DNA of 64,000 nt from Perognathus longimembris pacificus. Lineage: Eukaryota > Chordata > Mammalia > Rodentia > Heteromyidae. A program made the translations under genes and the position numbers. Positions 23,401 through 26,400 of this stretch are shown piece by piece (position 1 is the first letter of the stretch; each line of letters starts with the position of its first letter). The DNA is taken from positions 61,715,934 through 61,779,933 of the forward strand of contig NC_063169.1 in the NCBI RefSeq assembly GCF_023159225.1, read 5' to 3'. The notes under the pieces were generated by a model. The model had not been told where the DNA came from and did no database searches. It saw only the letters and a list, made by a program, of their open reading frames with translations.

Positions 23401-26400
23401 CCGCCCTTTACTCTGGAGTACACAAGAAACCCCTTTTCTTCGATGGCTCTCCAGAGAAGCCTCCGGAGGAGGACGCGGACTCCCTCACCACGTCTCCGTC
23501 CCCCAGCAGCCTGGAGAGTAGCTGGGGAGCCGGTCGCAAGTTGGTCAAGACCTTCAGCAAAGGCGAGAGCCGGGGGCTGATCAAGCCCCCCAAGAAGATG
23601 GGGACCTTCTTCTCCTACCCGGAGGAAGAGAAGCCCCAGAAGGTGTCGCGCTCGCTGACGGACGGGGAGATGAAGAAGGGACTGGGCTCGCTGAGCCACG
23701 GGGTAAGTACGGACGGCGTCTTCTTCTATGACCACCACCGGCGCCGGCACCACTTGCTGGTGTCCCTGGAGGAGGTGCAGAGCGTGCGCAAGCAGATCCG
23801 CTGGAGGAAGACGGACGCCGGCCACGGCCACTCGTGCGCCCGCGCCGCGCCCTGTGCGCGCCCCTCCCGGCGAAGCGCGAATGGCTCCACCGGCGACCTG
23901 CCGCTGCCCCGGCCCAAGCCCAAGGCGGGTGGCGGCGGTGGACGGCGCGGCCGCGGGCGCCCCGCCGTCAGCGAGTTCAATATCACCTACGTGGTGGAGC
24001 GCAGCCTCTACAGCCACCTGAACCTGACGCAGCTGGTGCGCCCCGGGCCGGAGCGGACCCTGCGCAAGGCCGACAAGCAGGACCTGCGGCGCTGCCTGCT
24101 GGACGAGGACCAGGAGGCGCAGAGGAAGTGGGCGGCCACCGTGGACCGCTGCACCAAGCGGGTGCTCTTGCGAATCCACCAGAAGTCCGTGAGTGGCCAG
24201 CGCCGCGCCTTGTCATTTCCCTGGCGTGCAATCAAGCATCGTGGCCTTCCTCTCCTGGGCAAGCTGCCCGCCTTCCCCACGCCTCACCCCGGCCATGCCG
24301 GGCCCTTCTACGGCCTCCTCCCCTCCTCTCCCCCATGCATCTCCTCCCTCTCCATCTTGACCTGGCACCTCCCTTCTCTAACCCACTACCTTCAGTGTTG
24401 ACTTTCTCTCTTCCCTCTCCATCTTGACTGTCTGCTCTATTCTCTAACCCACTACCTTCAGTGTTGACTTTCTCTCTTCCCTCTCCATCTTGACTGTCTG
24501 CTTCAGTCTCTAACCTACTTCTTTCGGTCCCTCTCCATCTTGACGGTCACCTCCAGTCTCTAATCTACTTCCTTCAGTGTTGATTTTCTCCTGCCTCTCC
24601 ATCTTGACCATCACCTGCAGTCTCTAACCCACTTTTTTCAATTTTGGCTTTCTCTTTCTTCTCTATCTTGACGGTCACCTCCTCTCTAACCCACTTCCTT
24701 CAGGAGCACCTTTCCGACAATCTCCTCTGGCCCCTAACCTGCTTCCTTTAATAGTGGTCTTTCACTTCCTTTTTCATCCTGACCATTTGAAGTGAGCTGG
24801 ATGTGTAATCTAAATGGAGCCTTGAGACCCATCCAGAGGGCCGTCCAGGGTATAGGCTGGGGCCTGGCCACCTCCTTCTCATCACTTGACCTCAATTAGA
24901 AACTGATTCAGAACGCAAGGACATTTTGCCCTTCAAAAGAGTTGCTTTGCTCCTTCAGTTAATGAAAACAATGGCAGCGAGCTCGCAGAGTCTCTGCCAT
25001 CACCAGTAACGGTCGGTGATTGGAAACGCCAAGTCTGTTCTTAGTAGAGGCAAGCAGAAAGTTCCAAAGGCTAACAGGGCAGAGGCCGGTTTTACTTCAG
25101 TAAATTTAGTGTTCTTATATTTTAAAGCATTTGTTTCCATGCGTAGCAAGGAACAATGCCCTGCCTTTCAAATAATAAAGTATTTTTTTTTTTCTATTTT
25201 AATGAGCGATCCGAGAGAAGTGGTGCGATTTCTGCTCGGGGCATGCCTAGGGCCAGCTTTAGAATGCAGATCATTTCCCCCTTGCAATGCCCACCTAGCG
25301 CTTAGCTTGCACAGCAGCCCCTGTAAAATGGCACAGAGGACCTGGCAGAGGCCTGCTGGCACCTTGTTTCGTCCACCCGGGGCTGCTGGCCCGGAGCCCC
25401 TTTGAAAGGTCTGAAAGAACCTTTAGAAGAATCCGCTTCCATAGTGGCTTTTCCCAGGCTTCCTTCACGCTCATGAATAGGATGTTCTTCCCCGGACGAT
25501 TACTGTAATTTAAATGCATTCAATCCAGCCCTGCTTTTGTGAGAAAGGAAACTGATTGGTCAATGCTATCCTTAGAATGATCTTCTCTGTGCTGAAAGGG
25601 TCCTTGGGTCTTTCCTACCTCTGGGGATTCCTAAGTACTCTCTCATGAGCCCACTTTCTTTGTGGATCTTATTTTCTATCTTCTCACATTCCTGTGGTTC
25701 TTGTAACACTTTTAATACTATTCGTCTGTCACAGAAACTTTTCTTCTGGCTCTTTTTCTACACTGTGGCAGTAGTTTTTGCTGGGTTTGGTTTTGAAAAA
25801 AGAGAAATCTCTTTGTTGCCCCTTCAGCCTCTGGTCTGCTCGGATCCACATATATTTTGTAAAAGGCCAGTCTCAATGTCTTTTTTTTCCCCAGCTTTCA
25901 CAGTGTGATGCCCAGTTCATCTGCTCTGTACATAACCTGGATAGAATACAGCCACTTTCTTGTTCACTGATGACTCTGTGAGTTTAAATTATAGAACATG
26001 GAGAAGTTATCTCCTTGGAAGTGCCTTGAATTGCTCATGAGCTTCTCGTGTTATTTATTGCTAGATAAATAATATGAATTAATCAGGACCATTATTCAAG
26101 AAGTGATAGTTCTGAAATCTTTGTGAATTCACATTGGTGGGCCAGTGTGGAGAATTAACACCCCGGCCAGCTCGTGCCTGAGCACTGAGTCCCATTCGCT
26201 GAAGGTGACACTATTTAATCTCTAAATGGATTCTTAGTTTATTTACATTGCTGAGAGTCAGTCTGAACTAGGCATTTTTTTAAGATGCAAGAGCCAGTCC
26301 TGGATGGTTATTAATTCCTTCTAAATTAGAAATTTGCACATAGCAAGTTTCCTAAGTACAGTTGCATAATCAGGAAAACAAAACTGAATATTCTGATTAT

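Follow-up and report, generated by a model that had tools for sequence, protein, structure and literature searches.

The 162-codon in-frame extension of a SASH1 exon in the genome of Perognathus longimembris pacificus very probably belongs to a genuine second version of this protein, since SASH1 of mammals, birds, reptiles, amphibians and bony fish is predicted to have this insert at the same position. An alternative SASH1 isoform carrying this insert had been proposed in an earlier note on this DNA, and the proposal is supported at the protein level, with the same insert and the same ends recurring across the bony vertebrates. The window, that is, the whole stretch of 64,000 nt that was analyzed, contains the 3′ part of mammalian SASH1 on the plus strand, on which all the features below are located unless stated otherwise. 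A total of 12 SASH1 exons were placed in it by tblastn with an approximate SASH1 query, together with splice signals. These exons span from 17358 to a stop at 51095, and their joined ORF is intact both without the extension (1002 aa plus stop) and with it (1164 aa). The exon concerned (23353–23702), which is the second exon mapped in the window and is called exon 10 here after the numbering of the earlier note, ends in SLSHG in the canonical short form, lies in the intact joined ORF and shows 91% identity to the approximate SASH1 query. The insert (23703–24188) continues it past the normal donor for 486 nt, or 162 codons, and no stop was found, exactly as had been claimed. Its end at TCC/GTGAGT (donor at 24188/24189) leads in the same phase, phase 0, to exon 11 (29493–29567), again in agreement with the claim; this exon opens with AGA ACC TGC (RTCSFGG..), and the SPIDER (SLY) match begins there. 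The Pfam analysis of a 658-residue joined window protein with the insert revealed SPIDER (323–476), SH3_2 (479–531) and SAM_1 (556–614) in the domain order of SASH1. A second, C-terminal SAM, which is a feature of SASH1 only, was assigned to the last exon (50832–51095) by its 86% identity to the C-terminus of the approximate SASH1 query, the profile scan covering the 658-residue protein. Over exons 11–20, the closest protein fetched was SASH1 of Dipodomys merriami, with 92% identity over 841 residues. Elsewhere in the window, a long simple repeat at 9160–9586 yields ORFs with runs of proline and leucine.

The composition of the extension fits that of a coding sequence, with GC contents of 0.69, 0.52 and 0.93 at codon positions 1, 2 and 3, respectively, and with 151 of the 162 codons ending in G or C, which bears out the statement that nearly all of them do. 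The extension is 71% GC, and in 5000 dinucleotide-chain shuffles, frame 1 remained free of stops in 4.3% and at least one frame did so in 13%, so the open frame by itself is weak evidence. An ORF of 312 codons was also observed on the minus strand (23274–24212), opposite the exon and the extension, and is probably a by-product of the GC-rich third positions. The view that frame, donor and codon bias would hardly agree by chance is thus weaker than it had been put, given the share of open shuffles and the open opposite strand. The argument from the sequence alone is of moderate strength, and homology was therefore needed to decide.

The protein search, in which the 162 residues were placed within a long-form query, returned 2010 candidates, from which 202 proteins with the insert were obtained. 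The 120 listed of these 202 have SASH1 names or domain sets of the SASH1 type, with E-values from 4e-74 to 7e-23, and include mammals, birds, turtles, squamates (lizards and snakes), frogs, axolotl, lungfish and coelacanth, as well as ray-finned fish such as bichir, sturgeons, gar and teleosts; no shark was present among the 120 listed. An alignment of 68 rows was built from the window and 67 homologues selected from the 120, and in all 68 rows, the insert begins with VS and ends at one identical serine. After this last serine, 114 of the 120 listed proteins enter exon 11, two others join an apparent exon 12, and the remaining four (P0003, P0051, P0089 and P0110) read on with VS and join later. 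The length of the insert, from HG/VS to QKS, ranges from 156 to 198 aa in the 112 of the 120 proteins that could be measured with a second anchor pattern; a first pattern had measured 102, missed 17 and misread P0003, which contains both forms in one model. Six further proteins lack the insert, and five of them (P0185, P0186, P0187, P0189 and P0191) join SHG directly to RTCS. With long records in 114 of 120 proteins, short ones in five and both forms in P0003, the two forms therefore both exist in protein records. A further protein search yielded 38 matches, none of which contained the junction of the core with exon 11.

Five bird models (P0106–P0109 and P0111) harbor inserts of only 63 residues, in which the proximal donor is joined to an inner acceptor at VVE/RSL. 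An AG is found at the corresponding place in the window (23998–23999) and is a candidate acceptor in Perognathus longimembris pacificus, its use being seen in bird models only. The Apodemus model P0090 joins the proximal donor to an acceptor at Q/RPSRKG, leaving a 114-residue, exitron-like insert. Exitrons are introns inside coding exons, and the five bird models resemble them in losing the residues from the proximal donor to VVE/RSL, a likeness seen in models only.

Conservation, measured as the mean majority-residue frequency across the 67 homologues, varied along the insert. The N-terminal segment (23703–23816) is basic, 38 residues long and moderately conserved (0.757), and the Arg/Gly-rich middle segment (23817–23960) changes in length and is the least conserved (0.684). 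The C-terminal core of 76 codons (23961–24188) reaches 0.885, above the 0.742 of exon 10. The core of the window shares 93% identity with that of Dipodomys merriami (P0034), 85% with coelacanth (P0065) and 73% with pike (P0117). Most of the invariant columns of the insert in the 68-row alignment belong to two motifs, which are almost unchanged to teleosts: motif 1, of 19 residues (23967–24023), and motif 2, of 22 residues (24123–24188), which is amphipathic and basic and reaches exon 11. The middle segment has changed in this lineage, in which NYSCSRAFLCQRPSRKG of many other mammals is replaced by a 17-residue stretch; the matching stretch is altered in Dipodomys merriami as well, and the core is kept.

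The long-form models are predictions and are not independent of each other, because annotation pipelines use homology. ORFs taken from assemblies are a better test, since the keeping of the frame is partly built into the models. Among 64 shorter, mostly unnamed ORFs of this kind, 59 read on with VS after QKS, P0137 reads on with IS and one ends there, whilst the end pattern was missed in three: P0145 (RIRQKS followed by VS), P0172 (which ends slightly before this point) and P0173, in which the reading is out of frame at motif 2. Thus, outside the SASH1 gene models, most of these ORFs keep the same frame, motifs and donor codons, and this makes it highly improbable that the insert is an annotation artefact, i.e., an ordinary intron, open by chance, whose single mistaken model was copied by gene-prediction software to many species. 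The open shuffles, the open opposite strand and the frame of P0173 would suit such an artefact, but a core whose conservation exceeds that of the accepted exon preceding it, from mammals to teleosts, is unlike an idle intron.

Two donors and one common acceptor, with the frame kept by both, were found, as in an alternative 5′ splice site. The proximal donor, GGG/GTAAGT (23703–23708), scored 9.26, the third highest of the 12 donors scored, and the distal donor, TCC/GTGAGT (24189–24194), scored 4.33, the second lowest, with an approximate weight matrix. Besides the proximal donor, four further GT sites in 23600–25500 outscore the distal one. The short form is therefore expected by default, and the long form is predicted if something blocks the proximal donor or promotes the distal one. 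Because GTAAGT and GTGAGT both encode VS, the long protein carries a trace of the proximal donor, namely the VS found in all 68 rows. By the same codons, the distal donor appears to be conserved, since VS follows QKS in 63 of the 64 proteins that read on (P0137 being the one with IS), as a conserved GTRAGT would give; for both donors, conservation across species was judged through the codons only.

The intron just past the distal donor is apparently conserved among mammals, to judge from the translations of other species, with 'LVIS' present in 18 of 64 read-through proteins. The corresponding stretch of the window (24209–24246) was identified by eye, and its translation in that frame lacks LVIS. 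A conserved intron flanking a donor often accompanies regulated splicing, and this one is only suggestive of it. No copy of the splice-regulator motif GCATG was found in 23703–24700. A tandem array rich in pyrimidines lies 3′ of the distal donor (24340–24703); its units measure about 66 nt, and six to seven partial copies were counted, including those just beyond.

The extension is at the center of a CpG-island-like stretch (23600–24199; GC 0.70–0.73, CpG observed/expected 0.95–1.01), and this intragenic stretch could be a regulatory element. Together with the apparent conservation of the intron after the distal donor, it fits an explanation in which the DNA or RNA itself has the role (CpG island, enhancer, splicing control or RNA structure) and the protein reading is a by-product. 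We regard this as very unlikely, although such a role may coexist with the isoform. The GC content of 0.93 at third positions against 0.52 at second positions, with the protein motifs kept, argues against it, the folding of the extension was no better than that of shuffles (z 0.24), and inserts that vary from 156 to 198 codons nevertheless end in the same terminal motif.

The Pfam SPIDER (SLY) match starts at the last residue of the insert, so that the claimed position right before the SLY region was recovered. SPIDER is described as a disordered region common to the SLy family in the review PMC10252437. An AlphaFold model from the 68 rows predicted the insert to be mostly disordered, with a mean pLDDT of 51.5, and a long helix over model residues 239–278 (24066–24185), whose ten-residue blocks rise towards the end with pLDDT values of 56, 66, 83 and 88. 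In this model, the helix would run straight into SPIDER, because the SPIDER match starts at the last residue of the insert. A short helix (208–221) was also predicted over part of motif 1. The model of a 1164-residue orthologue was poor (mean pLDDT 44.8, with the SH3 strands not formed); it gave the long helix again at a pLDDT of about 60, and the short helix was absent from it. The insert had been described as basic and helical. The first property was borne out by a net charge of +18 (Lys/Arg against Asp/Glu), and the second appears to hold, at modest confidence, for the C-terminal part, most of the insert being predicted as disordered. Along the insert, the hydrophobic moment peaks (0.59) at residues 258–275 in the model numbering, within motif 2, and the last 23 residues carry a net charge of +6.

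No domain could be named for the insert, as had been anticipated, with no match above the cut-off in Pfam, NCBIfam or the PDB. The Pfam profile search gave only NLRX1_C (E 0.17, 12.1 bits against a cut-off of 27), the NCBIfam library, which is prokaryote-oriented, gave no family, and among the best 60 of 79 PDB matches, no relative of the insert was found, the top profile matches lying on the SH3 and SAM regions. The NLRX1_C and NADH oxidase matches were dismissed as sub-threshold. The Pfam family PF26285, which is annotated on the full-length matches and for which a UniRef name is SASH1/NUB1 homeodomain-like, was rejected as the insert, since P0185, P0186 and P0189 carry it without having the insert and the insert-bearing P0137 and P0149 do not carry it.

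Taken as a whole, we consider it likely that the extension is a coding segment of SASH1 chosen by an alternative 5′ splice site, and that the insert before SPIDER provides an isoform-specific docking helix that switches the assembly of the scaffold. U1 would normally act at the strong proximal donor (23702), with the short protein as the default product. Skipping of this donor in favor of the weak distal one (24188) would add 162 residues directly ahead of SPIDER (SLY), in the form of a flexible, strongly basic linker. Two short motifs in this linker hardly vary, and the second of them would lie within the long amphipathic helix that runs up to SPIDER. This helix may serve as a docking site specific to the isoform, for a binding partner or for another part of SASH1, and may thereby let cells switch what the SASH1 scaffold assembles. 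Two donors, an open frame, conserved ends and motifs, and the occurrence of both forms in databases were observed in the sequences; from these, we infer the regulated use of the long form and the binding mediated by the helix. No partner of the insert is named in anything found.

The rival explanations are not all mutually exclusive, so that their odds do not sum to one. The net charge, the Arg/Gly-rich middle and the predicted disorder of most of the insert would suit a real isoform in which it acts only as a spacer or a localization tag, e.g., a basic nuclear or RNA-binding segment, with no dedicated partner for the helix. This appears rather unlikely, as the basic middle is the least conserved segment and the two motifs are nearly invariant. 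A sub-case of the docking helix is that motif 2 is a helix of the calmodulin-binding type, which we treat as a lead only and judge improbable. The calmodulin motif rule has hydrophobic residues in 1–14 spacing and a classical anchor at position 8. Motif 2, which we take to resemble the myosin light-chain kinase peptide, is basic and has this spacing at Trp260–Leu273, along with the highest hydrophobic moment of the insert and the net charge of its last 23 residues; however, position 8 is a Cys, which is not a classical anchor, the acidic Asp265 is invariant inside the motif, and the only PDB sequence match to the 22-residue peptide was at chance level and was not a calmodulin complex.

With respect to known systems, the sequence of the insert is not new, because predicted isoforms carrying it are already in public databases. 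The models named 'SASH1 isoform X..' have the insert, its ends and its neighbors as in the window, with nothing different in kind; they differ in that they are predicted only, with no described function found, and in that the middle segment of the window has diverged. The canonical short SASH1, in which exon 10 is joined to exon 11, shares the gene, the exon and the SPIDER-SH3-SAM order and lacks the 162 residues. None of the 64 mostly unnamed insert matches of 153–488 aa bears the name SASH3 or SAMSN1, a size range within which the lengths of both presumably fall. These paralogues have SPIDER, SH3 and one SAM in common with SASH1, according to the available part of PMC10252437, but not, by these names, the insert, which looks SASH1-specific. 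No description of the insert was found in the open-access literature, which misses most subscription journals, and it is not described in the available parts of PMC10252437, PMC5345616, PMC4399393, PMC8052246, PMC4721070, PMC2100168, PMC10453029 and PMC4670233. In the part of PMC8052246 that is available, a ranking of 48 genes by their splicing index in diseased placenta includes SASH1, without RT-qPCR validation, and the exon behind the SASH1 value is not named. The job of the long-form insert seems not to have been studied so far.

The extension thus represents a conserved alternative-donor isoform of SASH1 with an unnamed segment, which is probably functional, as far as its conservation indicates. 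More tentatively, and with somewhat more doubt than belief, SASH1 may have two ancient scaffold states set by one splice choice. In the long state, a SASH1-specific, two-motif helical module, present throughout the bony vertebrates, would sit ahead of SPIDER and bind either a dedicated partner or SASH1 itself, and the segment would have been treated as an intron in experiments or variant calls relying on the short human transcript only. SASH1 has attracted study as a tumour suppressor and as a pigmentation gene, to our knowledge mostly in its short form. Should the long form be produced, part of the supposed intron codes for a stretch that is better conserved than the exon before it and contains two nearly invariant motifs, variants within the insert would be missed, and a rescue with short-form cDNA would omit a function that has been kept since the ancestor of the bony vertebrates.
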